Assembly: GCA_021808055.1 (NCBI GenBank)
Contig: JAKBCH010000043.1
Coordinates: 1 to 15,478, forward strand
Direction: 5' to 3'
DNA: 15,478 nucleotides
Source: Pseudomonadota bacterium
GTDB taxonomy: Bacteria; Pseudomonadota; Alphaproteobacteria; Acetobacterales; Acetobacteraceae
A program made the translations under genes and the position numbers. This document shows, one piece after another, positions 1 to 12,480 of the stretch. Positions within the stretch are counted from its first letter, which is position 1; each line of letters opens with the position of its first letter. The notes beneath the pieces were generated by a model. The model ran no database searches. It was not told where the DNA came from and was given only the letters and a program-made list of their open reading frames with translations.

Positions 1-32
1 TCCTTGCCGGGGGAAAGCTTGCTGACGTCCAT
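1..32 (-). CDS. ppa: Inorganic pyrophosphatase, N-terminal fragment (cut by window edge)
   Basis: Only the first ten codons lie in the window, reading MDVSKLSPGK on the minus strand from an ATG at 30-32. This matches the conserved opening of bacterial family I soluble inorganic pyrophosphatases, which in alphaproteobacteria typically begin MD(I/V)SK(I/L)xPGK. The enzyme hydrolyses pyrophosphate to phosphate in the cytoplasm and pulls biosynthetic reactions forward. A good ribosome binding site (CAGGAG, nine bases before the ATG) supports the start. A sigma-70-like promoter lies at 63-92. The identification rests on ten residues plus the ribosome binding site, so the sequence left of the window must confirm it. 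Confidence 0.6.
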   Translation of the reverse strand, partial: MDVSKLSPGK

Positions 33-62
33 AGACCGGAACTCCTGTTGAAGACTGCGGCG

Positions 63-92
63 CGTATAACCCGGCCCGGCGCATCTTGCCAA
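63..92 (-). promoter_or_regulatory. Predicted sigma-70 promoter for the ppa-like gene
   Basis: On the minus strand there is a -35 box TTGGCA (plus-strand 87-92, five of six consensus bases), an 18-base spacer, and a -10 box TATACG (63-68, four of six). Transcription would start near position 56, giving a leader of about 24 nt that contains the CAGGAG ribosome binding site of the gene starting at 32. The arrangement is read by eye and untested. Confidence 0.45.
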
Positions 93-120
93 CGCGGCCA
101 TGGCTTGTATGGTGCGGCAG

Positions 121-142
121 CCTTTCAGGCCCTACTGAAAGG
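121..142. repeat. Perfect 8-bp hairpin just upstream of the tRNA gene
   Basis: CCTTTCAG (121-128) and CTGAAAGG (135-142) form a perfect 8-bp stem with a 6-nt loop, ending four bases before the mature tRNA 5' end at 147. It lies between the divergent ppa-like promoter and the tRNA. It could be a processing or transcription signal in the tRNA leader. There is no U-tract, so a terminator is unlikely. Confidence 0.5.
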
Positions 143-146
143 GTGT

Positions 147-222
147 GCGCCGGTAGCTCAACGGTTAGAGCGGACCGCTCATAACGGTTTGGCTGCGGGT
201 TCGATTCCTGCCCGGCGCACCA
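147..222 (+). tRNA. tRNA with CAT anticodon, probably tRNA-Ile2 (lysidine type)
   Basis: A complete 76-nt cloverleaf can be folded. The acceptor stem GCGCCGG (147-153) pairs with CCGGCGC (212-218). The D stem is GCTC/GAGC (156-159/168-171). The anticodon stem GACCG/CGGTT flanks the loop CTCATAA, with CAT at 180-182. The T arm is 195-211 with loop TTCGATT. The discriminator is A219 and CCA is encoded at 220-222. The fully paired 1-72 position and the lack of three consecutive G-C pairs in the anticodon stem argue against initiator tRNA-fMet. The acceptor pairs C4-G69 and C5-G68 are the pairs TilS lysidine synthetase favours in E. coli tRNA-Ile2, whereas elongator tRNA-Met has U4-A69 and A5-U68 there. 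Ile2, reading AUA after lysidine modification, is therefore the preferred identity; elongator Met is the alternative. Confidence 0.93.
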
Positions 223-232
223 GTTTCAGGTA

Positions 233-727
233 TTATTGCAGAGCTTCATCCCCCGCCAGCAGTGTCTGCAAATCGGCTTCTGCCCGGTTAATTTCCTCTT
301 GCAGAATCTCGGCCTGGGCCTCCAGCTTCATCGCCTCGTCCTGTAGGCCGAACATGTAGCCATTTTCTGGCTCAATCCGGGCGATCCGCGTCCGGAGCTG
401 GTGCTGCACCCCGGAAACCTCTTTCAAAAAGGCCAGCAACAGCGCGGCCCGGGTTTCTTGCGGGTAGTGGTGCCATTTATGCTGCATGGCAGCGTGGGTT
501 TCAGCGGCCAGCGCATAGGCCAAAGATGGGTTGTTTGGGTGGCAGGCATCCAGATCATGCCGCAGCTTGGCAACAGCGGTGCCGATTTCAGCCATCGCCG
601 CGGTTTCGGGCACGCCCGGCAGCTTGCCGCTAACATAGCCAGCAAAAGAGAATGTAGCGCTGCTTGCGGTGTCGTCGGCGGATTTCCCCATTTCGTCCTG
701 GCTCCGGCTGGCGTCTCTCGTGGCCAT
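233..727 (-). CDS. Hypothetical coiled-coil protein (164 aa)
   Basis: I do not recognise the family. The 164-residue product has a polar, Ser/Asp-rich N-terminus (about residues 1-25) and an alpha-helical middle with a His/Trp-rich stretch (HKWHHYPQET, about 83-92). Its C-terminal third, about 118-160, is rich in Glu, Gln, Leu and Ala and looks like a coiled coil. There is no signal peptide or membrane segment, so it is probably cytoplasmic. The TAA stop at 233-235 lies ten bases past the 3' end of the convergent tRNA. The start ATG (725-727) has no strong Shine-Dalgarno sequence; a perfect inverted repeat at 734-769 lies immediately upstream. Competing frames are shorter or overlap the tRNA, and this frame has the most protein-like composition. 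The function is unknown. Confidence 0.6.
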   Translation of the reverse strand: MATRDASRSQDEMGKSADDTASSATFSFAGYVSGKLPGVPETAAMAEIGTAVAKLRHDLDACHPNNPSLAYALAAETHAAMQHKWHHYPQETRAALLLAFLKEVSGVQHQLRTRIARIEPENGYMFGLQDEAMKLEAQAEILQEEINRAEADLQTLLAGDEALQ

Positions 728-733
728 CTGGAG

Positions 734-769
734 TCATGCAAATATCAAGGTGCTGAGATATTTGCATGA
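734..769. promoter_or_regulatory. Perfect 13-bp inverted repeat upstream of the hypothetical gene
   Basis: TCATGCAAATATC (734-746) is exactly repeated inverted as GATATTTGCATGA (757-769) with a 10-base spacer. It begins seven bases upstream of the ATG at 727, so it covers the leader or core promoter of the leftward gene. The AT-rich perfect arms and the position suggest an operator or a translation-blocking hairpin rather than a terminator. No regulator gene is adjacent, so the binding protein is unknown. Confidence 0.5.
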
Positions 770-908
770 AGATGATTCCGGGCAGGCGGCCACACGCCTA
801 CCTCAACACCTTAGGCTAACACCACCTCCAAGGTGAACGAAGTTACAAATATGTTATGGCCACGACATTGTTCTTTACAGAACCATGCGCTCGAATTTTC
901 AAGACATT

Positions 909-940
909 CGAGAGGAGAGACTGATTAGTCTCCCCTCTCG
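909..940 (-). terminator. Hairpin terminator after the amidohydrolase gene
   Basis: A 14-bp stem (909-922 with 927-940) closes a 4-nt loop GATT. On the plus strand there is one A-C mismatch (916/933). In a minus-strand RNA this becomes a G-U wobble, so the stem is fully paired only in the leftward transcript. It lies 23 bases after the TAG stop (964-966) of the amidohydrolase gene. The downstream bases are AT-rich but lack a real U-tract, so efficiency is uncertain. An overlapping 7-bp repeat (CTCGAAT at 890-896, ATTCGAG at 906-912) allows an alternative fold. Confidence 0.6.
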
Positions 941-963
941 CGCGAGGTCAGGCTAAAATATTA

Positions 964-2148
964 CTATATTGAAAAGAATTTTTTGGCGCAACCTGCGATG
1001 ATCCAATCCCGTTCGGCGTGGGGAACGCCTCTGAAATTTTGCTCGATCGTCTTGTGTGAATGTGGGAAGGTTGTCTCAGAATGTGGATAATCTGATGACC
1101 ACATTATATTTCGTCCGCCAGGCTGATGCCGCAACTGTACGCCGATCGGATCGCTGATGAACGAAGCATAGACGTTTTGGTCGAAGTAATAACTGGGTGG
1201 ATGGGCGATGTTACATTCCGTCCAGTAGCGCTGCATGTCCCAGGTGCGATCCATATAGTTGGCTGCCCAGGGAATCCATCCTACGCCAGCCTCAATCAAC
1301 CCAATGCGCAAATTCGGAAAACGGTCAAACACGCCACCATAAATCATGATGGCGGGCATTTCCAGCATGGCTGGTTTGCCCATTACGACATCCGGCAAGA
1401 AGTTGGTTTTGTCCGTAAAGCGGGATACGCGCGCGCCAAGATGGAAGGTAACGGCCAAGTCAAGATCGCAAGCTGCGGCCCAAAGCGGGTCGAATTCCGC
1501 ATCGCGATATTGCCGGAGGCTTTGCGCATCGCCCGAAAGCGCTTGATATTGTGAGAGAGCTTTGTTCAGTGTGCTTGCCGTTTGCGGAAAAGCCGGAATA
1601 TTCACGGCCACGGCACCGCTGCGCTTGGCATCATGCATCATGGCGATGGTTTGGTCCACATCCATAACCGGCAAAAAAGCCGCATATTTCAAACGCTTCG
1701 GGTTTTCGCTGCAAAAATCCGCCACCCAACGGTTATAGGCGCCGAAACTACTGGTATACAGGTCCATATTCCCCGTCTGCAACGGTCCGCCGCCAAACAC
1801 GATGGCCACGTCCACTCCGTCTTTGTCCATGTCGCGGAGCCGTTGCGGCGCCATCCAGCCGCCCAGGCGCATATCGGACAGCTTTCCCGCATTGCGGTAC
1901 TCCTTGGCGGAGCGCCCAGCCTGAGACTGCATCAGATGAACCTTGCGCCGTGCTCCTTCAAACACGACATAATCAAACTCGCCGTCGCTCTCCACCACAG
2001 GGGCCAGCTCGCGGAATTTGGGCGGCAAGTAGTCGCGCCACATGCCGGGCGGGGGGGTCACGTGTACATCGGCATCAATCACAAAATCGGCCACACGGGG
2101 CTCTGCTTCCACGTCCCGGTTGGCGTCAATTATCTCTGTGGCATCCAT
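964..2148 (-). CDS. Amidohydrolase family 2 (ACMSD-like TIM-barrel) enzyme
   Basis: This 394-residue cytoplasmic protein belongs to the amidohydrolase-2 (PF04909) group of metal-dependent hydrolases and non-oxidative decarboxylases, related to ACMSD and gamma-resorcylate decarboxylase. Visible motifs are the N-terminal metal motif D-x-H (D27, H29 in DADVHV), a barrel His at 236 (TFHLGA), and the C-terminal SSDYPH motif with Asp353 and His356. I chose the ATG at 2146-2148 because AGGAGG lies six bases upstream; the longer frame to 2205 has no such signal and would run into the promoter. It is the last gene of a leftward catabolic set whose other members (CoA-transferase, FAH enzyme) lie upstream. 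It has its own predicted promoter with a TetR-type operator at 2220-2233. The substrate is not deducible; a C-C bond hydrolysis or decarboxylation step is an inference. Confidence 0.88.
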   Translation of the reverse strand: MDATEIIDANRDVEAEPRVADFVIDADVHVTPPPGMWRDYLPPKFRELAPVVESDGEFDYVVFEGARRKVHLMQSQAGRSAKEYRNAGKLSDMRLGGWMAPQRLRDMDKDGVDVAIVFGGGPLQTGNMDLYTSSFGAYNRWVADFCSENPKRLKYAAFLPVMDVDQTIAMMHDAKRSGAVAVNIPAFPQTASTLNKALSQYQALSGDAQSLRQYRDAEFDPLWAAACDLDLAVTFHLGARVSRFTDKTNFLPDVVMGKPAMLEMPAIMIYGGVFDRFPNLRIGLIEAGVGWIPWAANYMDRTWDMQRYWTECNIAHPPSYYFDQNVYASFISDPIGVQLRHQPGGRNIMWSSDYPHSETTFPHSHKTIEQNFRGVPHAERDWIIAGCAKKFFSI

Positions 2149-2195
2149 TCTATCCTCCTGATTTTGGGCTTGCGCCGCGGCGTTTGCATTCAAGG

Positions 2196-2224
2196 AGCCT
2201 AGCAAAAAATTAAAATTGTAGCAA
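2196..2224 (-). promoter_or_regulatory. Predicted promoter of the amidohydrolase gene
   Basis: On the minus strand TTGCTA (2219-2224) and TAGGCT (2196-2201) are separated by 17 bases. Transcription would start near 2189, about 40 nt before the ATG at 2148. The -35 box lies inside the palindrome at 2220-2233, so a protein bound there would block RNA polymerase. The boxes are only moderate matches to consensus. Confidence 0.45.
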
Positions 2225-2233
2225 GCGCTTGGT
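2220..2233. promoter_or_regulatory. Predicted TetR (KstR2-like) operator, site 1
   Basis: AGCAAGCGCTTGGT contains the perfect 10-bp palindrome CAAGCGCTTG and fits the pattern AnCAAGnnCTTGnT described for mycobacterial KstR2. The same 12 bases CAAGCGCTTGGT recur at 4399-4410 in front of the CoA-transferase gene and tetR. It sits in the 105-bp gap between the FAH gene and the amidohydrolase gene and overlaps the -35 box of the latter. Repression by the nearby TetR protein is inferred. Confidence 0.7.
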
Positions 2234-2253
2234 TTTTATCCTGTGTGGCGGCT

Positions 2254-3093
2254 TCATTGGGCCAGTGGCGAGGCTGACACGGATATATCCATGCGGCCAA
2301 TGCGTGGAATATCAAGGCTCATCACATCACCGGGCATCACCGGTGCCACGTCGGCAGCGCCCGAGAAAATCACATCGCCAGGGTACAGCGTCATGGCTGA
2401 GGAGGCGAAAGCCACAAGCTGTGCGGGGCTGCCGGTCAAATCGCCAAAAGCGCGCTGCCCGCGCAATTCGCCATTCACCCGGAATTCGTACGCCAGGCTG
2501 GATGGGTCGGGAATTTCATCTCCGGTCACCAGCCACGGGCCAAGCACGCCGTAACTGTCAAAAGATTTACAGAAGCAGAAAAACTCCTTTTGTTCTTTCA
2601 TGGTCATATCCATGCCGCCCGTGTAGCCGGCCACATAATCCAGCGCCTCGGCCTCGCTCACATTGCTGCAGGTCCGGCCTATCACAATCGCCAGTTCCGG
2701 TTCGTGCAATGTGGTACGGCTGGTCCAGCGTATGTGCACGCCCTCATCCGCCCCAGCCATCGCGCTGGTTGCCTTGAATAAGAATCCCAGCACCCCGAGC
2801 GGCGCGCCGTGGTGCTTCCAATTTCCCACACCGCAGATGAATTTCCCGGGATTTGCCACGGGCGACAGCAATTTTACCGCCGCCCGGGGCAGAGCGGGGG
2901 AGCTTTTCGCCGCCTGTTCAATCAAGGGCCGTAGCCGTGGCAGGCTGGCCAGGAATAAATCCTCGCGCGGTAAGGGCCAGGTTACGGCGGGCAGTTCGCG
3001 CGTCACATCTGTTACGTCGTGTATCGCCTCTCCGTTCACCAGGCCCAGGCGAGGCAAATTTTCTTCTGGCAGCATAAAACGGCAAATTTTCAT
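2254..3093 (-). CDS. Fumarylacetoacetate hydrolase (FAH) family protein
   Basis: The 279-residue protein is a member of the FAH superfamily, which cleaves C-C bonds in diketo acids or hydrates/decarboxylates 2-oxo acids using Mg or Mn. The metal ligands are visible: E131-x-E133 in HEPELAIVIG and D162 in GGMDMT, followed by K176 in KSFDSYGVLGPW. The typical C-terminal strand GDVIFSGAADVAPVMPGDV follows at about 239-257. Many relatives have a TGTP-type motif where this protein has SGAA. The ATG at 3091-3093 has TAGGAT upstream and leaves a 16-bp gap after the CoA-transferase stop (3110-3112); a longer frame to 3132 would overlap that gene. It is co-oriented with the CoA-transferase gene and very likely in the same transcript. 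The exact substrate is unknown. Confidence 0.88.
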   Translation of the reverse strand: MKICRFMLPEENLPRLGLVNGEAIHDVTDVTRELPAVTWPLPREDLFLASLPRLRPLIEQAAKSSPALPRAAVKLLSPVANPGKFICGVGNWKHHGAPLGVLGFLFKATSAMAGADEGVHIRWTSRTTLHEPELAIVIGRTCSNVSEAEALDYVAGYTGGMDMTMKEQKEFFCFCKSFDSYGVLGPWLVTGDEIPDPSSLAYEFRVNGELRGQRAFGDLTGSPAQLVAFASSAMTLYPGDVIFSGAADVAPVMPGDVMSLDIPRIGRMDISVSASPLAQ

Positions 3094-3109
3094 GGCATAT
3101 CCTAAAGGT

Positions 3110-4324
3110 TTATTGCACGGCGGCACAGGCACGCAGCCGTGACACGTCTTGCGGTGTCAGCCCTAGCCCGTACAGAATCTCATCTGTGTGTTCGCCCAGT
3201 TGCGGCGCCCGCCGCGGCTCAAGCGGTGCGCTGCGTCCATCAAAACCCACCGGCCCGCTGGCCAATGTCACGTTAGAGCCATCTTGCACCGTTACATCAA
3301 ACAAATACCCGTTGGCTGCCGCCTGCGGGTCTTCCGCCACCTCGTGGATGGTTTTCACCAACTCCCAGGGAGCGTCCCAGCCCTCAAACAGCGGCTTCCA
3401 ATCCGCCCAGTCCCGCACCGCCACGGTGGCACTGAATTCACCAATCAGCGCCGCGCCATTTTCCACCCGGGCCCGGCTTGTGGCAAAGCGCGGATCGCCG
3501 GCCAATTCCTCGCGCCCCAGCAAGCGGCAGAGTGAAAGCCAATAGCGCTCCGGGTCCAGCAGCATCAGCTGAATGAATCGGCCATCACGTGTCTTGTAGG
3601 CGGTGGTCAGGGGAAAGCGCGATGCCTGACTGGTTGCCGCCATTTGTTCCGGCGTTTGCACCTGGCTCAGCACCACATCGGCCGAGAGTATCCACATGGC
3701 CGATGCCAGCAGAGATATATCCACCACCGATGGCTCACCTGTCTGTGCCCGTTTGAACAACGCCCCGGCAATGCCATAGGCCACGGCAACGGAAGATGCA
3801 TGGTCTCCCAGTGCCGGGCGTGGCCGCAACGGGGCATCCGCATTCGCCACATTCAGCATGTGCGCAAATCCACCGCGCGCCCAAAAGGCCGAGGCGTCAA
3901 ATCCCGCCTTGCCGGCCTCTTTGCCGCGGAACCCCACGCCATTGCCGCGTACATAGATCAGCTTCGGGTTGCGCGCGCGCAATGCCTTTACGTCAAAACC
4001 AAGCCGTTCTATGGCCGGAGGGCGCAGGCTGGTGAGGAATACATCCGCAGTTTCGATCAGGCGCAGAAACACGTCACGACCCGCAGCGGTTTTCAGGTCG
4101 ATGGCCACGCTTTTCTTGCCGCGGTTATTCAGCTCCATCGAAAGATTGGCCGATTTAGTTGCCCGCCCATCGGCAATCTTTAATGTCCGGTACGGGTCGC
4201 CTGCCCCCGGAGGCTCTATATGGATGACCTCCGCCCCTTGGTCCGCCAGCAAGGCCCCGGCGGCGGGCACAAATACAAATTGCGCCAGTTCCACCACCCG
4301 GACGCCAGAAAACGCACCCATCAT
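3110..4324 (-). CDS. CaiB/BaiF family (class III) CoA-transferase
   Basis: The 404-residue protein has the class III CoA-transferase signature. It opens with GVRVVELAQFVFVPAAGALLADQGAEV at about 7-33, then has IEPPGAGDP, NRGKKSVAIDLK and an AGFDASAFWARGG motif with the expected catalytic Asp at 143. These enzymes move CoA from an acyl-CoA donor to a carboxylic acid through an aspartyl-CoA anhydride, which would activate a catabolic acid in the cytoplasm. Two adjacent ATGs (4322-4324 and 4319-4321) follow GTGGGGAG; the second gives better spacing, a one-residue difference. It is first in the leftward set and is followed 16 bp later by the FAH gene. The intergenic region with tetR holds an operator at 4397-4410 and a CATAAT -10-like hexamer at 4390-4395 on the minus strand. 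Confidence 0.9.
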   Translation of the reverse strand: MMGAFSGVRVVELAQFVFVPAAGALLADQGAEVIHIEPPGAGDPYRTLKIADGRATKSANLSMELNNRGKKSVAIDLKTAAGRDVFLRLIETADVFLTSLRPPAIERLGFDVKALRARNPKLIYVRGNGVGFRGKEAGKAGFDASAFWARGGFAHMLNVANADAPLRPRPALGDHASSVAVAYGIAGALFKRAQTGEPSVVDISLLASAMWILSADVVLSQVQTPEQMAATSQASRFPLTTAYKTRDGRFIQLMLLDPERYWLSLCRLLGREELAGDPRFATSRARVENGAALIGEFSATVAVRDWADWKPLFEGWDAPWELVKTIHEVAEDPQAAANGYLFDVTVQDGSNVTLASGPVGFDGRSAPLEPRRAPQLGEHTDEILYGLGLTPQDVSRLRACAAVQ

Positions 4325-4372
4325 CTCCCCACTCCCTATTCGTGGCGGTAAAAATTCACGGCCCGGCCACGG

Positions 4373-4401
4373 TTGCTGTTGCTGCCTAAATTATGTATCA
4401 A
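4373..4401 (+). promoter_or_regulatory. Predicted rightward promoter for the leader ORF and tetR
   Basis: TTGCTG (4373-4378), a 17-base spacer and TATCAA (4396-4401) form a plausible sigma-70 promoter. The -10 box overlaps the palindromic operator at 4397-4410, which would give autoregulation. It would drive the 31-codon ORF at 4459 and tetR at 4572. The hexamers are moderate matches. Confidence 0.4.
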
Positions 4402-4410
4402 GCGCTTGGT
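4397..4410. promoter_or_regulatory. Predicted TetR (KstR2-like) operator, site 2
   Basis: ATCAAGCGCTTGGT fits AnCAAGnnCTTGnT and contains the same perfect CAAGCGCTTG core as the site at 2220-2233. It lies in the divergent region between the CoA-transferase gene and tetR, overlaps the predicted rightward -10 box and is next to a CATAAT on the minus strand. This is the expected place for an operator controlling both directions. Confidence 0.72.
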
Positions 4411-4458
4411 AAAATATCCATGGGCGCTATCGCCGTCAAGCACAGCGGGGAGGTGGTC

Positions 4459-4554
4459 ATGAAAGTTCCACCGCTGGTCGCGTTAATATCCGTGGTTTGC
4501 TATGGGGTCTTTTCATATGCCACGCCGCTGTCTTCCGGCTGGTGGCGCGGCTAG
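4459..4554 (+). CDS. Candidate 31-aa hydrophobic leader peptide upstream of tetR
   Basis: An ATG at 4459-4461 follows GGGGAGG with a five-base gap, the best ribosome binding site in this intergenic region. The frame runs 31 codons to a TAG at 4552-4554. The peptide begins MKVPPLVALISVVCYGVF, has one hydrophobic stretch (about residues 5-20), and ends in a Ser/Gly/Trp-rich tail. The stop is embedded in TAGGAGGA, the purine-rich sequence just upstream of the tetR start codons, so its translation could be coupled to that of tetR. It is in a different frame from tetR. No homologue is recognised, and a chance ORF of this length is possible; the strong Shine-Dalgarno sequence and the stop position are the evidence. 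Confidence 0.45.
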   Translation: MKVPPLVALISVVCYGVFSYATPLSSGWWRG

Positions 4555-4571
4555 GAGGAATGAGGGGCAGG

Positions 4572-5336
4572 ATGGCGGAAGATACTAAACAGGCTAGGCT
4601 GTCTGGGGCCAAAACAGCACCAAAAGCCGCTGCCGCGCAGCAGCTTAAGGCGGCTCCAAAAACTGGTAAAATCGATCGCCGTACCCGCATTCTTCAGGCC
4701 GCTACCCATCGCTTCGCTGAATGCGGGTTCGATTTCACCACCGTCCGCCAGATTGCCGATGATGTTGGAATTCTTTCAGGCAGCCTCTATCATCACTTTG
4801 CCACCAAGGATGAGATGCTGCACGAGATCGTGCGCGGCGCGGTTCAGCAGTTGCGTGGCACTGTCAAACGTATTGCCGCAGCACCGGTCAGTGCCGAGCG
4901 CAGGCTGGTCGCTCTGGTGCTGTTCGAGCTGGATGAGATGACGCGCAACCAGCAAGTCCACGCCATCCTTACGAATAGCCGCCGTTTCTTCCGGGGTAAC
5001 CCGGAATTTGCCTATGTCGTAGAGGCCAAGAAGGAGAATTTCTACGCCTGGAAGCGCGTGCTGAAGGACGGCATCGATGCCAGGCTTTTTAAGCCGGAAA
5101 TCGATCCATTCCTGACCATCCTCACCATTTCCCGCATGCTTAACACCGCGGCGGATTGGTACAGAAACGAGGATGTCTATGTTTCCGGCTCGGGCGAGTC
5201 GGATAAACCCTATACGCTCGACAAGGTGAAGGATTTCCATCTCGACTTTATTCTCAACGCCATACGTTTGCCGTCCCGCACCGCTGAACCCATCCCGCGG
5301 CAGGACGGCGAGGCGCTGGCCAGCATTACGGCCTGA
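4572..5336 (+). CDS. TetR family transcriptional repressor (KstR2-like)
   Basis: The protein is 254 residues from the ATG at 4572. A Lys/Ala-rich N-terminal tail (1-34) precedes the TetR helix-turn-helix domain at about 35-85, with TTVRQIADDVGILSGSLYHHF at 56-76 as the recognition region. The remaining ~170 residues form the ligand-binding and dimer domain, which resembles the C-terminal domain of KstR2-type regulators of acyl-CoA catabolism. Start choice is uncertain. ATG 4560 sits only one base after AGGAGG, while ATG 4572 follows GAGGGG by four bases. The frame to 4497 is unlikely because it crosses the leader ORF. It is divergent from the CoA-transferase gene. Two AnCAAGnnCTTGnT palindromes (2220, 4397) are its probable operators, and a CoA thioester its probable inducer; both are inferred. 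Confidence 0.9.
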   Translation: MAEDTKQARLSGAKTAPKAAAAQQLKAAPKTGKIDRRTRILQAATHRFAECGFDFTTVRQIADDVGILSGSLYHHFATKDEMLHEIVRGAVQQLRGTVKRIAAAPVSAERRLVALVLFELDEMTRNQQVHAILTNSRRFFRGNPEFAYVVEAKKENFYAWKRVLKDGIDARLFKPEIDPFLTILTISRMLNTAADWYRNEDVYVSGSGESDKPYTLDKVKDFHLDFILNAIRLPSRTAEPIPRQDGEALASITA

Positions 5337-5525
5337 CACGCTTTATCTAGCGCCGCCCCTGTGACGGCCCGCATAAATTGTGCAAAGAGCAGGGCCATGT
5401 GGACGCAGAACACAGGCCGGCAGGCCGCAAACCGTGGCAACTCCCTTCTTACAGGTCAGGCAAGGACCGCTGCGCGCTCGTGCCGGCATGTTGTTCTTGG
5501 TATCAAATTTAAGGAAATCAGTTAG

Positions 5526-7205
5526 ATGGCCGCTTACCAATACGTGTATGTGATGAAAGATCTCACCAAAGCCTATCCTGGCGGGCGTGAGGTGTTCAAA
5601 GGCATCACGCTCTCTTTCATGCCTGGTGCCAAAATCGGCGTGCTTGGCGTCAATGGTGCCGGTAAGTCCACCCTGCTGAAAATCATGGCGGGCATAGAAA
5701 AAGAATATGGTGGCGAGGCCTGGGCCGCCGAGGGCGCGCGAGTCGGCTATTTGCCGCAGGAGCCGCAGCTCGACCCAGAGAAGAACGTGGGTGAGAATGT
5801 TGCCGAGGCCTTCGCTGATCTGCGCAAGGCCATTGCGCGGTTCAACGCCATCTCGGAAGAATTCGCCGAGCCGATGGACGATGACAAGATGAACAGCCTG
5901 CTCGCCGAACAGGCCCAGTTGCAGGAAGTCATCGATGCCGCCGATGGCTGGGATCTCGACCGCCAGATTGAAATCGCGCTGGACGCGCTGCGTTGCCCGC
6001 CACCCGAGGCCGATGTGCGCCCGCTTTCTGGAGGTGAGCGCCGCCGCGTGGCGCTATGCCGCCTTTTGCTGGAAAAGCCCGAACTGCTGCTGCTCGATGA
6101 GCCGACCAACCATCTCGATGCGGAGTCGGTGGCGTGGCTGGAACGCACCTTGCAAAACTACGCTGGCACGGTCATCCTTGTTACGCACGACCGTTACTTC
6201 CTCGACAATGTGACCAACTGGATCCTCGAAATTGAGCGTGGCCGCGGCTACCCTTATGAGGGCAACTACTCCGCTTGGCTGGAGCAGAAGCGCAAGCGCC
6301 TGGCTCAGGAAGAAAAGGAAGAATCCGCCCGTCAGCGCGCCTTGGCCGAGGAGCAGGACTGGATTTCCGCGAGCCCCAAGGCGCGCCAGACCAAGAGCCG
6401 CGCCCGCATCCAGCGCTACGAGGAAATGCTACAAAAATCGCAAGAGATGCAGGCTGGTGTGGCCGAAATCATCATCCCGCCCGGCCCGAGGCTGGGGGGG
6501 ACGGTTATCGAGGCCATCGATCTCTGCAAGGGGTTTGGCGACCGGGAGTTGATCGAAAACCTCAACTTCAAACTCCCGCCGGGCGGTATTGTTGGCGTTA
6601 TCGGCCCCAATGGCGCTGGCAAATCCACGCTGTTCAAAATGATCACGGGCCTGGAGAAGCCGGATTCTGGCGCGCTTAAAATTGGCGAGACCGTCAAACT
6701 CGGCTATGTCGATCAGTCGCGTGATAGCCTCGAGGCCAACAAGAATGTGTGGGAAGAAATCTCCGGTGGCACCGATGTCATCTATCTGGGCAAGCGCGCC
6801 GTCCCTTCACGCGCTTATGTTGGGGCCTTCAACTTCAAAGGCGCGGATCAGCAGAAGAAAGTCGGTGTGCTCTCGGGTGGGGAGCGCAACCGCGTGCACC
6901 TCGCCAAGATGCTGAAGTCGGAGGCAAATGTCATCCTGCTCGATGAGCCGACCAACGACCTGGACGTGGATACGCTGCGCGCGCTGGAAGAGGCCCTGAT
7001 GGAATTCCCTGGCTGTGCCGTTATCATTTCTCACGATCGCTGGTTTCTCGACCGTCTGGCCACCCATATCCTGGCCTTCGAGGGCGATAGCCATGTGGAA
7101 TGGTTCGAAGGCAATTTTCAGGCCTATGAGGAAGACAAGCGCCGCCGCCTCGGCCAGGACGCCACGGAACCCCACCGTATCAAATACCGCCCGCTCACGC
7201 GGTAA
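5526..7205 (+). CDS. ettA: Energy-dependent translational throttle protein EttA (ABC-F ATPase)
   Basis: This 559-residue ABC-F protein has no membrane segments and matches EttA from end to end (E. coli EttA is 555 aa), including [20 protein letters not shown] near the N-terminus. Domain 1 has Walker A at 41-49, signature LSGGERRR at 167-174, and Walker B/catalytic Glu192 in [12 protein letters not shown]. The charged linker between the ATPase domains spans about 240-310. Domain 2 has Walker [10 protein letters not shown] at 360-368, LSGGER at 449-454, and Glu474 in [12 protein letters not shown]. EttA binds the ribosomal E site and gates the first translation cycles according to ATP/ADP. The ATG at 5526 follows TAAGGAAA. 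The 189-bp gap after tetR holds no convincing gene or terminator. A 7-bp hairpin follows at 7216-7237. Confidence 0.96.
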
Positions 7206-7215
7206 GCCGGAGGCA

Positions 7216-7237
7216 CCTTGCTGGCACATAAGCAAGG
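7216..7237 (+). terminator. Weak hairpin after ettA
   Basis: CCTTGCT (7216-7222) and AGCAAGG (7231-7237) form a perfect 7-bp stem with an 8-nt loop, ten bases after the ettA stop. There is no U-tract, so it may be a processing or Rho-assisted end rather than an intrinsic terminator. The next gene starts at 7283. Confidence 0.35.
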
Positions 7238-7282
7238 CCAAGGCGGCTGCGCTCTCTCTGGTGTCCCCCAGGGGGGCGCCTG

Positions 7283-7807
7283 ATGAGCGTGACCTGGGCC
7301 TGGGTTGTAACCACAGCGCGGTTGCGGATGACCCCTGTGGGGCATTGGGACTTGCCGGACCTAATCCGGCTGAAGGGTGACCCGCGTGCCTATGCCCTAA
7401 TGCTGGGGGGGGTAAAGGGGCCAATTGATGTGGCGGCGGAGCTGGCGCATGACATTCAGGATTGGGGCCGCCACGGCTATGGCATGTGGGCGGTGCGCGC
7501 TCTGCGCGGCAAGTTTCTTGGCATAACCGCCCTCATGCACCGGCCAGATGGCCGGGGCGTTGCCCTGCGCTTTGCTTTTCTACCCGAAATGCGCGGCCTG
7601 GGTCTGGCCAGTGAGGCCGCTGGCGCGGCTCTTAATTACGGGCACTCCAATGCGGGGCTGGAGCGTATCGTTGCCATCGCACGGCAGGATAATTTTGCAT
7701 CCCGCGCGGTTTTGGGCGGCATTGGTATGCCCTATGCCGGTGAGTTTATGCGTGATGGAAATTTAATGTATATTTATCAATCTATTCTACACGGAAACAT
7801 CAGGTGA
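7283..7807 (+). CDS. GNAT family N-acetyltransferase (RimJ/RimL-like)
   Basis: The 174-residue protein shows the RimJ/RimL-type GNAT layout. It has an N-terminal TARLRMTPVGHWDLPDL segment (residues 11-27), a central beta strand GYGMWAVRALRGKFLGITAL, and the acetyl-CoA pyrophosphate loop RGLGLASEAAGAAL at about 108-121. A C-terminal strand-helix NAGLERIVAIARQDNFASRAVLGGIGM follows. It probably acetylates an amino group of a protein N-terminus, metabolite or antibiotic; the substrate cannot be read from sequence. AGGGGGG six bases before the ATG supports the start. It follows ettA by 77 bp. A run of eight G (7405-7412) at codons 41-44 is a potential slippage site that would truncate the protein. 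Confidence 0.85.
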   Translation: MSVTWAWVVTTARLRMTPVGHWDLPDLIRLKGDPRAYALMLGGVKGPIDVAAELAHDIQDWGRHGYGMWAVRALRGKFLGITALMHRPDGRGVALRFAFLPEMRGLGLASEAAGAALNYGHSNAGLERIVAIARQDNFASRAVLGGIGMPYAGEFMRDGNLMYIYQSILHGNIR

Positions 7808-7889
7808 AATCGCGTCCATGCGGGACGAAACCTATTGCTTTTAGCCCCTGTTTTGTCACTTAAACCTTACTGTGACACGCGAAGAACAC

Positions 7890-8120
7890 ATGTCGATTCT
7901 CTCTTTTCTGGGCCGCGCCATGAGCGGTGCGCAGGAAGCGGTTGATGTTGAGGCGGATGCGATCATCCGGGCCTTTTTCAAGCGCAACCCGGAGGCGGCC
8001 TATCATGTAACCAAGCTGGCCATGGCCTTGGCCAAACAGCCACAGCCGCGTTCAGCCCTGTCAAAATCCCGCAACTGGCTCGCTTCTCTGCTGGAACGCC
8101 GCGATAATTTTGCCTCGTAG
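7890..8120 (+). CDS. Small hypothetical protein, possibly DUF2076-like
   Basis: A 76-residue product from the ATG at 7890 (MSILSFLGRAMSG). A GTG at 7872 would add six residues but has no ribosome binding site; the ATG itself has only a weak GAAG upstream. The central segment VDVEADAIIRAFFKRNPEAAYHV, residues 18-40 of the 76, resembles the N-terminal pattern of DUF2076-type proteins (acidic residues, then ALIxxxxxxNPxAAY). The long C-terminal part of that family is absent, and the tail is short and basic. There is no signal peptide or membrane segment. It lies between the acetyltransferase gene and the toxin-antitoxin pair on the same strand. The function is unknown and the family link is tentative. 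Confidence 0.5.
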   Translation: MSILSFLGRAMSGAQEAVDVEADAIIRAFFKRNPEAAYHVTKLAMALAKQPQPRSALSKSRNWLASLLERRDNFAS

Positions 8121-8125
8121 CGATA

Positions 8126-8159
8126 TTGCAACTTCTGCTTGTGAGTAATAGAATTATTA
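8126..8159 (+). promoter_or_regulatory. Promoter and likely autoregulatory operator of the toxin-antitoxin operon
   Basis: TTGCAA (8126-8131), a 17-base spacer and TAGAAT (8149-8154, five of six consensus bases) predict transcription from about 8161, 15 nt before the antitoxin ATG. The -10 box sits inside the small inverted repeat TAATA/TATTA (8146-8150/8155-8159). RHH antitoxins normally bind such palindromes over their own promoter, so this is the expected operator. Confidence 0.55.
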
Positions 8160-8175
8160 ACAAGTGGAGGTAGGT

Positions 8176-8445
8176 ATGGCGGACTACGTGGCGAAACCGG
8201 CCCCGGTCAGACTGCGCGCGGAACGGCTGGAAGCCCGTGTTACGGCCGGTCAGAAGGCGCTTATTGAACACGCCGCGGCATTGCAAGGGCGGTCGGTGAC
8301 CGATTTCGTGCTGAGTTCCGTGCAGGAGGCAGCGGCTAAGGCCATAGATGAGCATCAGCGCCTTACGCTCTCGGTGCGCGACGGGCGGTCTTTTGTGCAG
8401 GCTCTGGTAGGGCGCAAGGCGCAAGCGGGCCGCGATGAGGATTGA
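8176..8445 (+). CDS. tacA: DUF1778/TacA-type ribbon-helix-helix antitoxin
   Basis: The 89-residue protein matches the DUF1778 antitoxin family. Its N-terminal RLEARVTAGQKALIEHAAALQGRSVTDFVLSS region (about 14-45) forms the DNA-binding ribbon-helix-helix. The C-terminal tail, SVRDGRSFVQALVGRK (about 66-81), is the segment that wraps and neutralises the GNAT toxin in this family. The ATG at 8176 has a strong GGAGG five bases upstream; an upstream in-frame GTG (8164) overlaps that site and is rejected. Its TGA (8443-8445) overlaps the toxin start by 11 bp, the usual coupling in these operons. Autorepression with the toxin at the palindrome around 8146-8159 is expected. Confidence 0.88.
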   Translation: MADYVAKPAPVRLRAERLEARVTAGQKALIEHAAALQGRSVTDFVLSSVQEAAAKAIDEHQRLTLSVRDGRSFVQALVGRKAQAGRDED

Positions 8446-8926
8446 ACCTCTCACCCAAGCGCATGAGCGTGGCGGTTTTCGCTGCGGTGTTCCTTCATTC
8501 GACAAATACTTCCGTGCCCAGGCCGGGCGTGATGCGGCCAAGAGCCTGGCCGCTATTTTCGCGGGCGTGCTGCCAGAAGGTAAACTGGCGGGCTATTATG
8601 CACTTTCCGCCGCCGCCGTGCTGCTGCCAGACTTACTGGGTGGCCCGCAGCGTCTGGTCTCGCGTTACCCTGTGCTCACAGCGGCGCGGCTCACGCGCCT
8701 CGCGGTTGATAAGCGCCATCGCGGCCAGGGCCACGCCGCTGTCCTGCTGGCTGACGCCCTTAACCGCCTGCGTGCCTCTCCTGTCCGGCCCATGGCCGTT
8801 ATTGCTGAAATCCCCAACGAGACTGCCCGGCATTTTCTGGAACATGCCGGCTTTCAGGTCTTACTGGACCAGCCCAACCGTGCTTTCCGCGTGCTGCAGA
8901 CAGCCCCAAACCGGGAAGCCTCCTGA
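8435..8926 (+). CDS. tacT: TacT-type GNAT toxin with altered catalytic position
   Basis: The 163-residue protein is a GNAT acetyltransferase of the TacT/AtaT toxin type, which blocks translation by acetylating the amino acid on charged tRNAs. It has the N-terminal FDKYFRAQAGRDAAKS, the substrate strands KLAGYYALSAAAV, and an acetyl-CoA loop RHRGQGHAA at 94-102. At the C-terminus, family members have an F-Y-x3-G-F motif whose Tyr is catalytic (Y140 in Salmonella TacT, Y144 in AtaT). This protein has F134-L135-EHA-G-F, so that Tyr is Leu. The usual VDA before it is AEI here. The toxin may be weakened, inactive, or use another residue. Its ATG overlaps the antitoxin by 11 bp. A strong hairpin (8928-8950) follows directly after the stop. 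Confidence 0.85.
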   Translation: MRIEPLTQAHERGGFRCGVPSFDKYFRAQAGRDAAKSLAAIFAGVLPEGKLAGYYALSAAAVLLPDLLGGPQRLVSRYPVLTAARLTRLAVDKRHRGQGHAAVLLADALNRLRASPVRPMAVIAEIPNETARHFLEHAGFQVLLDQPNRAFRVLQTAPNREAS

Positions 8927-8927
8927 G

Positions 8928-8950
8928 AACGGGCGATTTCATTGCCCGTT
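8928..8950 (+). terminator. Hairpin after the toxin gene (first of three tandem hairpins)
   Basis: AACGGGCGAT and ATTGCCCGTT form a 10-bp stem (one G-T wobble) with a 3-nt loop, starting one base after the toxin stop. Only two U follow the stem, so intrinsic termination would be partial; read-through into flbT is possible. Confidence 0.45.
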
Positions 8951-8954
8951 AAGC

Positions 8955-8990
8955 AGCCTGTGCCAGGCTAAGTCCTCTGAATTGGACTTA
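8955..8990 (+). promoter_or_regulatory. Two further hairpins in the flbT leader
   Basis: AGCCTG/CAGGCT (8955-8960/8964-8969, loop TGC) is followed immediately by TAAGTCC/GGACTTA (8969-8975/8984-8990, 8-nt loop). The second stem ends at the first base of the flbT ribosome binding site AGGTGA (8990-8995). Both stems are perfect. In an RNA reading through from the toxin gene they would sit directly before the flbT start and could modulate translation or mRNA stability. Confidence 0.5.
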
Positions 8991-8996
8991 GGTGAC

Positions 8997-9389
8997 ATGT
9001 CGGCATTGATTCTGGAGCTCAAACAAGGGGAGTCGATGATCTTGAACGGCGCGTTCATCCGCTTCAAGACGCGAACAAGGCTGGAATTGAACACGCAGGC
9101 GCGCTTCCTGTTCGGTAAGCAGATCATGCGCGCGGAAGAGAGCACGACTCCCGCCCGCAAGGCCTATTATGCGCTACAACAAGCCTATATTGGTGCCGAA
9201 TCAGAGCGTCCGGCCGCCCTGGCCCATGCCCACATGCTGATCCAGGCCTTGCGGGATGAAACTGCGCCAGAGAGCAGCCAGGGATGGGATGCGCTGCTTG
9301 CCGCCAGCGCCGAAGAGGCGGGGTTCGAGGCGCTGAAGCTGGCCCGGCAGATGATTCGCGCTGAGGATTTTGCCGCCATCAAGCGCTGA
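8997..9389 (+). CDS. flbT: Flagellar biosynthesis repressor FlbT
   Basis: The 130-residue protein is FlbT, an alphaproteobacterial post-transcriptional regulator that in Caulobacter binds flagellin mRNA and couples its translation and decay to flagellar assembly. Recognition rests on the conserved start LELKQGESMILNGAFIRFK (residues 5-23) and on the block IMRAEESTTPARKAYYALQQAYIG (about 43-66). The length is normal for the family. The ATG at 8997 follows AGGTGA; the longer frame reaching back to 8442 lies across the toxin gene and is spurious. The usual partner flaF and flagellin genes are not in this window, so this is an isolated copy. It may be read through from the toxin operon. Its last 11 bp overlap the convergent LOG gene. 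Confidence 0.9.
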   Translation: MSALILELKQGESMILNGAFIRFKTRTRLELNTQARFLFGKQIMRAEESTTPARKAYYALQQAYIGAESERPAALAHAHMLIQALRDETAPESSQGWDALLAASAEEAGFEALKLARQMIRAEDFAAIKR

Positions 9390-9939
9390 GGAGGCGCAAC
9401 TCTTGTAGCCGTGCCAGTGCCGCTGGCGCGTCCGGCACAACTTCGAACAAGCCGCGGACGGTATCGCGCGCAAAGCCATAGGCGATAATCTGCTCCACCA
9501 TTGTCACAAAAGGCTGCGCCCAGCCCAGAATATCCACCAGGATGATCGGCTTCTCATGCTGGCCGAGCTGCTTCCAGGTCAGAATTTCAATAGTTTCATC
9601 AAAAGTTCCTAATCCGCCAGGCATGACGATGAACGCATCGCCCAGCGCGAATAGCCGCCGCTTGCGCGTATGCATCGAGTCGGTGACGATAAGCTCCGTC
9701 AGCCCATGAAACTCCACCTCACGCCGCCGCAAAAAATCGGGGATAATGCCGGTAACCTCGCCGCCAGCGCCCAGCGTTGCCGCCGCTGTTATGCCCATAA
9801 GCCCCACATTGCCGCCGCCAAAAACAAGCCGCATGCCGTTTTCACCCAGCCCTTGGCCCAGGGTTTTTGCGGCTTCCGCATAGGCCGGGTCTTTGCCGGG
9901 GGAAGAACCGCAAAACACGGTTACGGAAAAACGGTTCAT
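9379..9939 (-). CDS. LOG family protein (TIGR00730-type nucleotide phosphoribohydrolase)
   Basis: The 186-residue cytoplasmic protein has a Rossmann fold of the LOG family, whose members release the base from cytokinin riboside or other nucleoside 5'-monophosphates. Visible motifs are VTVFCGSSPGKDPAYAEAA at about 6-24, LVFGGGNVGLMG at 38-49, and the catalytic PGGLGTFDE motif at about 108-116 followed by TWKQLGQHEKP. The length is typical. The ATG (9937-9939) has GAGG upstream. It converges on flbT with an 11-bp overlap of the coding ends and diverges from the LysM gene 53 bp away. In bacteria outside plant-associated niches the true substrate is often unknown; a purine-nucleotide salvage role is likely. 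Confidence 0.92.
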   Translation of the reverse strand: MNRFSVTVFCGSSPGKDPAYAEAAKTLGQGLGENGMRLVFGGGNVGLMGITAAATLGAGGEVTGIIPDFLRRREVEFHGLTELIVTDSMHTRKRRLFALGDAFIVMPGGLGTFDETIEILTWKQLGQHEKPIILVDILGWAQPFVTMVEQIIAYGFARDTVRGLFEVVPDAPAALARLQELRLLSA

Positions 9940-9992
9940 ATAGTCTTGCCTCGCTTCCAGTTCCGCCCCGTTCGTGGCAGGCTAGGGGCGAC

Positions 9993-10952
9993 ATGGCAAG
10001 CAAACAGGACAATTCGGGTGAGTCCCCCACCCCACCGCGCCGCAGGGTAGAGTTAATCGCTTTGCTGGTGCTGGCGGGTTTGGTTCTGGTGGATCTGGGC
10101 ACTATGCTTTACCTCCACCATAAGCGCGCGCCCGTGCCCCGCGCGGTGCAAGTGCCGGCGGCCGCCAGCCAGCAAGCCCCGGCGGGGCCAGAATTCGACG
10201 TCGTTCGTGTAGATTCGCAGGGCAATGCCGTTCTGGCCGGCCGTGCCGTGCCAGGGGCCGTGGTTACCATTAAGGATAATGGCGCCATACTCGGCACCGT
10301 GACGGCGGATGCGCAGGGGGCCTTTGTCCTGCTCCCCGCCAAACCGCTCAAGCCGGGCGCGCACACCATCACCATGTCGGAAAAACTGCCTGACGGCACG
10401 ATGCTGGCCAGTACCGAGGATGCGTCCATAAATCTTCCCGGCAATGGCGGGCAGGCGCTTACCGTGCTTTCTGGCGCCAATGGCAGTTCACTCTTGTCTG
10501 GCCAGGGGCCGCATCCCGGAGAGCTGGCCCTTGGCGCGGTGGATTACGATACATCCGGCCACGCTATTTTCTCAGGCACTTCGCCGGCGGGCGCCAAGGT
10601 TAACCTCAGTCTTGGCAACCAGCTTATTGGTAGCGCGGTAGCCGACGCCAAAGGGCGCTGGCATATTACCGCGCTCACCCCGTCTGGCCGCGGTATGCTT
10701 GTGCTCGATGCCACCACCAGCAACGGCACGCAACTGCCCGTGGTTACCGCCCCCTTTGCCCCAGAGACTCTGAAAAACGCCCTGGCCGAGGGCCACATCA
10801 TCATCGCCCCGGGCGATTGCCTCTGGATCATCGCCAAGCATATCTACGGCGAGGGCACCAGATACACCCTCATTTATGCCGCCAATGCCGGCCAGATTCA
10901 TAACCCGAACCTGATATTCCCAGGGCAGAATTTTGTTCTGCCGCGCAAATAA
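9993..10952 (+). CDS. Membrane-anchored Ig-like/LysM domain protein
   Basis: The protein is 319 residues. A basic N-terminus (PPRRR) precedes one membrane segment (about 19-41), giving a bitopic protein facing the periplasm. A Pro/Ala-rich linker (about 46-68) follows. Two bacterial Ig-like beta repeats with matching patterns (VDSQGNAVLAGRAVPGA at about 72-88, VDYDTSGHAIFSGTSPAGA at about 184-202) come next. A C-terminal LysM domain (about 267-317, GDCLWIIAKHIYGEGTRYTLIYAAN) would bind peptidoglycan. The ATG at 9993 has AGGGG upstream; extending to 9867 would run into the divergent LOG gene. The stop lies 14 bp before psd, so the gene probably leads the psd-pssA operon. The exact role in the envelope is unknown. 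Confidence 0.88.
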   Translation: MASKQDNSGESPTPPRRRVELIALLVLAGLVLVDLGTMLYLHHKRAPVPRAVQVPAAASQQAPAGPEFDVVRVDSQGNAVLAGRAVPGAVVTIKDNGAILGTVTADAQGAFVLLPAKPLKPGAHTITMSEKLPDGTMLASTEDASINLPGNGGQALTVLSGANGSSLLSGQGPHPGELALGAVDYDTSGHAIFSGTSPAGAKVNLSLGNQLIGSAVADAKGRWHITALTPSGRGMLVLDATTSNGTQLPVVTAPFAPETLKNALAEGHIIIAPGDCLWIIAKHIYGEGTRYTLIYAANAGQIHNPNLIFPGQNFVLPRK

Positions 10953-10966
10953 GGCCAAATGACCAT

Positions 10967-11644
10967 ATGGATATTGTCGAGAGTGTAAAATCGGTGCTCA
11001 GCCCGCCGCACAAGGCTGGCTATCCATTCATTGCCGGCGGCCTTGCCGTGGCTGTGCTGGGCCTGTTCGTGTGGCAGCCGCTGGCCTGGGTCGGTGTGCT
11101 GTTCACATTGTTCTGCCTTTATTTTTTCCGCGACCCGGACCGCATTCTGCCGCCGCGCGCCAATGTATTCGTGGCCCCGGCCGATGGCTTGGTGGTTAGC
11201 ATTGAGCAAGCCGTGCCGCCCGCCGAGCTTGGCCTGACCTCCGCCCCGCGCACCCGCGTCGCCATTTTTCTTTCGGTGCTGGACGTGCATGTAAACCGCG
11301 CCCCCATTGCCGGTACGGTGGAGAAAATCGCCTATCATCCCGGCCTGTTCCTCAGCGCCGCCGAGGATAAAGCGAGCGATGACAATGAGCGCAACGCGCT
11401 GTTGCTGCGCCTGCCCACGGGTGAGGACGTGGTGGTGGTGCAAATCGCCGGGCTTATCGCCCGCCGTATTTTGTGTGAGGCGCGGGAAGGCCAGACCCTG
11501 GCCGCGGGCGAGCGCTTCGGCATCATCCGCTTCGGCAGCCGGACCGATTTGTACCTGCCAGAGGGCTGCGCGCCGCTCATCGCAGTGGGCCAGCGCATGA
11601 TCGGCGGCGAGACCGTGATCGCCGAGCTGCCCGGCGCCGCATGA
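10967..11644 (+). CDS. psd: Phosphatidylserine decarboxylase proenzyme, short (PSD-A) type
   Basis: The 225-residue proenzyme converts phosphatidylserine to phosphatidylethanolamine at the inner membrane. A hydrophobic hairpin (about 20-52) anchors it. The short-type core follows: FFRDPDR, the catalytic Asp in APADG (about 70-74), and the LDVHVNRAPIAG motif (about 95-106). Near the C-terminus the RFGS site gives autocleavage between Gly190 and Ser191, the Ser becoming the pyruvoyl group of a 35-residue alpha subunit. The length is normal for the class. The ribosome binding site is weak (AAGG 12 bases upstream), consistent with coupling to the LysM gene 14 bp upstream. The stop overlaps the pssA start as ATGA (11641-11644). 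Confidence 0.95.
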   Translation: MDIVESVKSVLSPPHKAGYPFIAGGLAVAVLGLFVWQPLAWVGVLFTLFCLYFFRDPDRILPPRANVFVAPADGLVVSIEQAVPPAELGLTSAPRTRVAIFLSVLDVHVNRAPIAGTVEKIAYHPGLFLSAAEDKASDDNERNALLLRLPTGEDVVVVQIAGLIARRILCEAREGQTLAAGERFGIIRFGSRTDLYLPEGCAPLIAVGQRMIGGETVIAELPGAA

Positions 11645-12462
11645 CACCGCGCCGCCGCCTGCCGCGCCGCCAGCGCTTTTCCGGGCAAAGCTTCAACCGC
11701 ATGCTGCCCAACCTGATGACGCTGCTAGGCCTCTGCATTGGGCTGTCATCCATCCGTTTTGCCATGGATGGCAAATTCAGCACGGCGGTTTTTGCCTTGG
11801 CCGCATCGATGGTCATAGACGGGCTCGATGGCCGCATCGCGCGCATTCTCAAGGCCACATCGCGTTTCGGCGCGGAATTCGACTCGCTCTCCGATTTTCT
11901 CTGCTTTGGCGTTGCTCCGGCGCTCATCATTTACATGTGGTCGCTTGCGCCCTGGGGTGGCATTGGTTTCTTGCCGCCGCTCATTTTCGCCTCGGCCATG
12001 GCGTTGCGCCTGGCACGTTTCAACGCGGCGCTGGACAGTGCGCCCAAAGCGGCCTTCGCCTATAATTTCTTTACTGGCGTACCGGCTCCGGCTGGCGCGG
12101 CCTTGGCTCTGTTTCCGCTTTTCGTGGGGCTGGAGGCCCAGGACATTCACGCTGTTTGGTTATGTAACTTGGTGGCCTATCCGCTGTTTTCAGGCGCCGT
12201 CCTGGTTGTAACTGGGCTGCTCTGCGTTTCAACCCTGCCAGTCTGGAGCTTCAAGAACTTCAAGATTCCCACAGCCGGAATTTTGCCGCTTTTGCTGGGT
12301 GTCGTCGTGTTCGCCGCGCTTATCTTCGCCGATCCGTTTCTCGCCGGTGCGCTCATCGTTATCGCCTATGTCGTCATGCTGCCTTTCTCGCTCCGCAGTT
12401 ACCACAAACTTGCGCGCCAAGCCGAGGAGCGGCGTGCGGCAGCCGAGACGGTCGATCCCTGA
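11641..12462 (+). CDS. pssA: CDP-diacylglycerol-serine O-phosphatidyltransferase
   Basis: The 273-residue membrane protein makes phosphatidylserine from CDP-diacylglycerol and serine, the step before Psd. The CDP-alcohol phosphatidyltransferase motif is complete: D60-x2-D63-G64-x2-A67-R68-x8-G77-x3-D81-x3-D85. It has about eight hydrophobic segments and basic ends, as expected for the Bacillus-type integral enzyme. The ATG overlaps the psd stop by four bases (ATGA), so the two are translationally coupled. The operon ends here: the next gene starts 86 bp on behind its own palindrome, though no terminator with a U-tract was seen. Confidence 0.95.
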   Translation: MTPRRRLPRRQRFSGQSFNRMLPNLMTLLGLCIGLSSIRFAMDGKFSTAVFALAASMVIDGLDGRIARILKATSRFGAEFDSLSDFLCFGVAPALIIYMWSLAPWGGIGFLPPLIFASAMALRLARFNAALDSAPKAAFAYNFFTGVPAPAGAALALFPLFVGLEAQDIHAVWLCNLVAYPLFSGAVLVVTGLLCVSTLPVWSFKNFKIPTAGILPLLLGVVVFAALIFADPFLAGALIVIAYVVMLPFSLRSYHKLARQAEERRAAAETVDP

Positions 12463-12480
12463 AAAACACGCCTAGATTGA

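Follow-up and report, generated by a model that had tools for sequence, protein, structure and literature searches.

A KstR2/AtuR-type TetR protein as the likely repressor of a scattered CoA-linked catabolic regulon in an alphaproteobacterium

Does an operator known from actinobacterial steroid-ring catabolism announce the same pathway when it is found in an alphaproteobacterium? The question is raised by a 15,478-nucleotide stretch of an Acetobacteraceae genome (assembly GCA_021808055.1, contig JAKBCH010000043.1, positions 1 to 15,478; hereafter the window), in which a tetR gene (4572..5336, plus strand) stands divergently to caiB, a coenzyme A (CoA)-transferase family III gene (3110..4324, minus strand; PF02515, E 2.6e-95), with a palindrome between them whose core recurs farther left. 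A first-pass annotation of the window had read the two palindromes as the operators of a compact, KstR2-like TetR circuit. Our analysis makes it likely that the TetR protein is a KstR2/AtuR-type repressor of a scattered CoA-linked catabolic regulon, and that this regulon does not serve HIP/steroid-ring catabolism.

The two candidate operators, predicted from sequence and assigned to neither strand, are O1 (2220..2233; AGCAAGCGCTTGGT, or ACCAAGCGCTTGCT when read in the gene direction) and O2 (4397..4410; ATCAAGCGCTTGGT). They have in common the core CAAGCGCTTGGT, as the first-pass annotation had noted, and its observation that the window holds no other copy is borne out by a scan with ANCAAGNNCTTGNT, which returned these two exact matches alone, against a mean of 0.01 in 200 shuffles, none of which had two. 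With up to 3 mismatches to O1 allowed, the matches number 7 where 2.27 would be expected; the two palindromes, each counted on both strands, account for 4 of them. O1 lies in the gap between the stop (2254) of a gene of the FAA_hydrolase (FAH) family (2254..3093, minus strand; PF01557, E 2.6e-39; its open reading frame, ORF, reaches a GTG at 3132, and the ATG start was chosen) and an Amidohydro_2 gene, amidohydrolase B (AH-B; 964..2148, minus strand; PF04909, E 2.5e-24), 71 nt upstream of the likely ATG of the latter at 2148. O2 lies between the starts of caiB (4324) and tetR (about 4572), and directly adjoins, on the caiB strand, a TTGACG-17-TATTTT element. The two sites had been placed at promoters; both are indeed intergenic and upstream of genes, and a promoter-like element adjoins O2, but none over the threshold was found at O1. 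The pattern that they fit is the published KstR2 operator, AnCAAGnnCTTGnT, for which the available part of Kendall et al. (2010; PMC3068626) gives probes positive in the electrophoretic mobility shift assay (EMSA), and autoregulation; one EMSA-positive probe there, Rv3557c/Rv3558, contains AGCAAGCGCTTGGT, so that its 14-mer is identical to O1 and to a third site of the genome described below. The two window sites are very probably landing pads of the neighbouring KstR2-like TetR repressor.

The TetR protein itself, whose start at 4572 was picked from homologues (the longest ORF begins at 4497), was typed by Pfam and homologue comparison. It carries TetR_N (PF00440, 48.4 bits, cut-off 24) and TetR_C_24 (PF17932, 35.6 bits, cut-off 26.4), and its best PDB sequence matches are 2ibd, 4w1u and 4w97 (E about 1e-25). 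Of these, 4w1u and 4w97 bear the name KstR2; 2ibd, which has the title RHA5900, we take to be KstR2 of R. jostii. The AlphaFold2 model (pLDDT 87) had 4w97, 4w1u and two 2ibd chains as its first four Foldseek matches, so that sequence matches and predicted fold agree with the proposed resemblance to KstR2-type regulators. A comparison of the recognition helix led to the same place: the segment GILSGSLYHHF is identical in the window TetR and in KstR2. Among the 20 TetR_N domains encoded in the genome of the window (G000, 2.79 Mb), 19 of them readable, SGSLYHHF is found in this protein only.

The whole-genome scan of G000 with ANCAAGNNCTTGNT gave 4 places, and the reversed control gave 1. The third site (C27:40546, AGCAAGCGCTTGGT) precedes by 80 nt a second amidohydrolase gene (AH-A), which heads a same-strand run with genes for a LysR, a DUF2889 protein, a third amidohydrolase, an AMP-ligase and a thiolase-like protein, possibly a single transcript. 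The fourth (C19:46266, AACAAGGCCTTGTT), which has a GC centre and lies inside the gene of a 611-aa penicillin-binding protein, was set aside as probably a chance match. Instead of many copies unlinked to catabolic genes, the genome thus yielded one further CG-centred copy, upstream of a gene of catabolic type; "compact" proved too small a description, the site at C27:40546 being off this locus. The LysR gene inside the AH-A-headed run (L005 4849-12466) suggests a second layer of control there.

We next consider 38 genomes of the genus, in which the TetR was sought by profile search (E up to 1e-15). A scan with ANCAAGCGCTTGNT found 31 places in 14 genomes and 1 place for the reversed control. 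Four genomes carry 3, 4, 6 and 6 CG-centred sites and all the others 0-2, and the TetR is present in exactly those four (G000, G598, G601 and G602), that is, at least 3 sites in 4/4 TetR-bearing and 0/34 TetR-less genomes (Fisher 1.4e-5, which is not a true probability, the genomes being related). The background, taken from 32 genomes (the 38 minus the four TetR-bearing ones and two with duplicate contigs, G595 and G599), is 10 places, or 0.31 per genome, giving Poisson probabilities of 0.004 for 3 sites and 1e-6 for 6. CaiB proteins at least 72% identical occur in exactly the same four of the 38 genomes, a CAAGCGCTTG operator stands between caiB and tetR in all four, and every placed operator of the genus has a CG centre. 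The TetR start in G598 is matched by a database TetR named 'Acidocella sp.', from which we take the genus to be probably Acidocella. Wider searches for the TetR, at class and family level, scored at most 6-13 candidates per genome and are no measure of spread; they gave 1/200 genomes at 1e-20, 2/385 at 1e-30 and 3/385 at 1e-25, and a scan of genome contigs one distant Arthrobacter TetR.

Where the sites lie points the same way. The four TetR-bearing genomes hold 19 of them, and the mechanical gene call put 13 either ahead of catabolic genes or in the gap that separates tetR from caiB; with starts re-read the number is 17, four of six ORF-internal sites having been re-read as upstream because the homology of the downstream protein begins past the site. 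These 17 comprise four at caiB/tetR (one per genome), four upstream of AH-A, two upstream of AH-B, three upstream of FAH or a thiolase-FAH run, one upstream of a luciferase-like (LLM) monooxygenase with PhyH, one upstream of PhyH, opposite a phosphoesterase, and two upstream of amidohydrolase C (AH-C), opposite a SnoaL_4 protein in one case and a DUF3574 protein in the other, with 87% identity between the AH-C proteins. In the TetR-less genomes 10 of 12 sites, spread over 8 genomes, are inside mechanically called ORFs, the remaining two being those of G595 and G599. On the mechanical call the contrast is 13/19 against 0/10 (Fisher 4.0e-4), or 2/12 with G595 and G599 added (6.4e-3); on the re-read starts it is 17/19 against 0/10 (3.3e-6) or 2/12 (8.2e-5). 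The operator core was found near orthologues of AH-A at 6/6 loci (two on duplicate contigs), of AH-C at 2/2 and of CaiB at 4/4, and in the fetched flanks of the other search matches at 0/8 amidohydrolases and 0/26 CaiB genes (one of 31 CaiB matches was not fetched). Genes at the sites in relatives also include those for an LLM monooxygenase, a PhyH dioxygenase, an enoyl-CoA hydratase, a thiolase-like protein and an alpha/beta-hydrolase.

The promoter-like element of caiB (4411..4439, minus strand) has 9/12 consensus matches, and its -10 abuts O2. Taken singly it is weak, a window scan for such elements finding 2 against 1.0 expected. A TTGAC[GC]-17-TAnnnn element runs into the operator at caiB and again at AH-A in 4/4 TetR-bearing genomes each. 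At PhyH of G601 and at the LLM and AH-B genes of G602 the arrangement is another: TTGCTA is supplied by the right half of the operator, and a TATnnn hexamer follows after 17 bases. For two more gene directions, tetR of G598 and DUF3574 of G602, an element ends at the operator. Both placements would suit steric repression.

If the regulator is so close to KstR2, could it simply be KstR2, transferred with its operator, its HIP-CoA ligand and its role in steroid C/D-ring degradation? The likeness is considerable. KstR2 (Rv3557c/MSMEG_6009/ro04598) has the same recognition segment in its TetR_N domain and is the top structural match; in both systems AnCAAGnnCTTGnT stands at the regulator's own promoter plus a few target promoters, for the window TetR at the level of sequence, and one published operator agrees with O1 over all 14 bases (PMC3068626, in the part available). 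Some relatives carry the Joint Genome Institute (JGI) name 'cholesterol catabolism regulator'. In addition, a related cluster in Novosphingobium, described below, encodes a ChsH2-type OB-fold protein together with a thiolase-like one, and this pairing occurs in steroid side-chain breakdown. However, the identity of the window TetR to the Nocardia and 2ibd rows of our alignment, 60% in the DNA-binding half, falls to 31% and 27% in the remainder, where the two actinobacterial KstR2 rows are 73% identical to each other (the Nocardia row was called KstR2 by its identity to 2ibd and its own operators). In a 22-row tree the two KstR2 rows group with a Streptomyces protein (99/99), and the window TetR is in a separate, well-supported branch (100/99). 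Note that the tree has several long branches, with a tool warning that long-branch joins may be false, and that its input took 8 rows from the 31-row alignment A1 (31 of 120 listed among 653 matches), with 3 duplicate rows dropped. The ligand domain also differs: R162 and W166, two presumed CoA-contact residues of KstR2, are conserved in both the Nocardia and the 2ibd row and align with S and N in the window TetR (a literature search for a paper on KstR2 Arg162 found none). Finally, the host is alphaproteobacterial, the placed operators of the genus have a CG centre, and the proteins scanned beside the sites, in a comparison that did not extend to a genome-wide search for HIP genes, include none of the ipdAB, ipdC or fadE kind; they belong to families other than ipdABCF, fadE30-33, fadD3, echA20 and fadA6, bar a generic enoyl-CoA hydratase and an AMP-ligase. 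A transferred KstR2 proper is therefore highly unlikely in our view. The idea of a KstR2-like circuit over a different enzyme set, on the other hand, fares well, as the enzymes encoded beside the sites appear to differ from those of the KstR2 regulon. EdcR-type steroid control was tried and rejected, since the EdcR operator in the available part of PMC8700777, TnnCnnTACnAnTnGTAnnGnnA, differs.

Nor is the operator specific to KstR2, as had been supposed. According to the accessible part of PMC9973270, Pseudomonas AtuR (acyclic terpene utilisation) and P. nitroreducens RdmA (metabolism of the diffusible signal factor, DSF), repressors of catabolic clusters, bind the same word, AGCAAGCGCTTGG/CCAAGCGCTTGCT. 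The window TetR might then be an AtuR/RdmA-type regulator for acyclic terpenes or branched fatty acids, its KstR2-like fold being a matter of chance. The helix of AtuR-like proteins is similar (SGSIFHHF; GIQSGSIFHHF at the 3 of 4 loci where the TetR beside the paired operator could be read, their identity as AtuR being presumed), although these loci were chosen by their operator and the latter is no independent evidence. Unlike the regulator of the window, AtuR and RdmA work through a pair of operators within a single promoter, spaced by about 40 bp (same part of PMC9973270), and their enzymes are different. The operators here are single: a pair of the AGCAAGCGCTTGG type 30-50 bp apart occurs at 0 places in G000, where atu genes were not sought genome-wide, and in 4/349 genomes of the phylum. 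Outside the DNA-binding half the AtuR-like proteins are 21% identical to the window TetR, and the three AtuR-like rows form their own tree group (100/100), placed weakly relative to the rest (39/65). This alternative ranks behind a transferred KstR2, and we hold it to be very improbable. Least probable of the three is that the palindromes are chance, or sites of another protein, with the neighbouring TetR binding elsewhere: background copies do exist (the 10 places are in 8 of the 32 remaining genomes, all inside mechanically called ORFs), but the co-occurrence with the tetR gene, the placement at orthologous promoters and the lack of another readable TetR_N in G000 with a matching helix speak against it.

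The first-pass annotation had offered a choice between transfer of KstR2 and convergence on one operator code. Since the tree gives the window TetR a clade of its own, a common origin of the DNA-binding half, joined to a ligand half that has diverged, is a better fit than either. Within the genus, the window TetR groups with its database relatives P0002 and P0005 and not with the other three genus TetRs, which would be consistent with separate acquisition. Our search of open-licence papers found none joining KstR2 with AtuR or with Acidocella.

A related cluster is carried by pSA1 of Novosphingobium resinovorum (L010), a megaplasmid typed as conjugative by PLSDB. Its order is LLM-PhyH-AH-B-OB_ChsH2_C protein-thiolase-like-CaiB, followed by a divergent TetR; the LLM, PhyH, AH-B and CaiB proteins are 62-73% identical to the enzymes of the genus, and the AH-B homologue is 69.5% identical to that of the window. 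It thus resembles the genus loci in the divergent tetR/caiB pair and in its LLM monooxygenase, PhyH and amidohydrolase B, and differs in the TetR helix (LLAGSLYYHF) and in the operator between caiB and tetR, AACAAGCGTTTGTT, which has one mismatch; the 24.6 kb of pSA1 that were read contain no exact CAAGnnCTTG. The tetR/caiB package adjoins EttA in the window and does not in G602, and since a related cluster is on a megaplasmid, transfer within the alphaproteobacteria is suggested. The one-mismatch variants AACAAGCGTTTGTT and ATCAAACGCTTGTT flank the pSA1 TetR (L010 11768-11781 and 12674-12687), a candidate case of natural helix and operator co-variation.

Several observations weigh against a repressor acting through these sites. 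Two of the 19 sites (L046 and L047) remain inside other ORFs, as 6/19 did before the re-reading, and since starts were re-read in the TetR-bearing genomes alone the re-read comparison is uneven. In a scan of 23 gene directions, which counted hexamers by consensus matches only and had no shuffle control, 10, including AH-B at O1 and tetR of the window, had no promoter element over the threshold meeting the operator. With any central pair (ANCAAGNNCTTGNT) the excess of sites over the reversed control is clear in G598 (5:0) and only modest in G601 (8:4) and G602 (8:3), and for the exact operator it is absent in the more distant TetR-bearing G522 (4 against 10 reversed) and G443 (6 against 8); the genus signal therefore rests on the CG-centred form. 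The pSA1 cluster has one-mismatch operators only, and another helix. Finally, G595 and G599 carry the operator and AH-A, and no TetR was detected in them. The contigs concerned are 100% identical to contigs of TetR-bearing genomes of different species (G595:C53, L057, to G000:C27, L005, over 13,473 bp; G599:C59, L045, to G598:C127, L044, over 8,719 bp), whereas the EttA proteins of G595 and G000 share only 81% identity. Mis-binning is the likely cause, although a very recent real transfer could produce the same picture.

From the computed sites, their co-occurrence with the TetR, their placement, the helix identity and the fold, we infer binding, repression, a class of ligand and a kind of substrate, as follows. 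A TetR dimer would bind AnCAAGCGCTTGnT palindromes at O2 (caiB/tetR), at O1 (AH-B) and at the unlinked AH-A-headed run. Because O2 abuts the -10-like element of caiB, binding there should block RNA polymerase, and it may also limit tetR. The inducer would be an intermediate of the pathway, most probably an acyl-CoA thioester that either CaiB or the AMP-ligase encoded in the C27 run produces; bound by the C-terminal domain, it would release the repressor and induce the pathway, a CoA-dependent catabolic route with amidohydrolases, CaiB and FAH. A scan of genomes with the operator word in this manner brings unlinked genes together as a single proposed regulon, with 17 sites over the four genomes, and makes the hunt for the substrate a testable one. 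Neither the operator nor the label 'cholesterol catabolism regulator' implies sterol catabolism, as the word seems to be common to three or more lineages of repressors. More tentatively, and with slightly more doubt than belief, we propose that the SGS(L/I)(Y/F)HHF helix and the CAAGnnCTTG word are an old portable module, in which one DNA-binding half, conserved across Actinomycetota, Pseudomonas and alphaproteobacteria, was joined to diverged ligand domains each governing a different CoA-thioester catabolism; the alphaproteobacterial branch would mark a so far undescribed amidohydrolase-CaiB-FAH-LLM-PhyH pathway, which would travel together with its operator from genome to genome and onto or off megaplasmids.

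At the promoters of TetRs with other helices (G443b, G601b and L066 of Streptomyces) there is no exact site, and the comparison suggests a helix-operator code, from few cases that are not proof. The alphaproteobacterial G522 has a TetR with GILSGSLYHHF, and CAAGCGCTTG, in forms departing from the outer A/T, at the starts of LLM and short-chain dehydrogenase/reductase (SDR) runs. At L039, whose TetR has the same helix, AGCAAGCGCTTGGG (5566) and GCCAAGCGCTTGTT (13596) precede genes for a luciferase-like monooxygenase and an SDR. Elsewhere in the window are a tRNA-Met gene (CAT anticodon; 147-222), near the window edge, and the gene of an 890-aa repetitive protein (12549-15221) with a C-terminal Hint_2 domain (residues 608-743).

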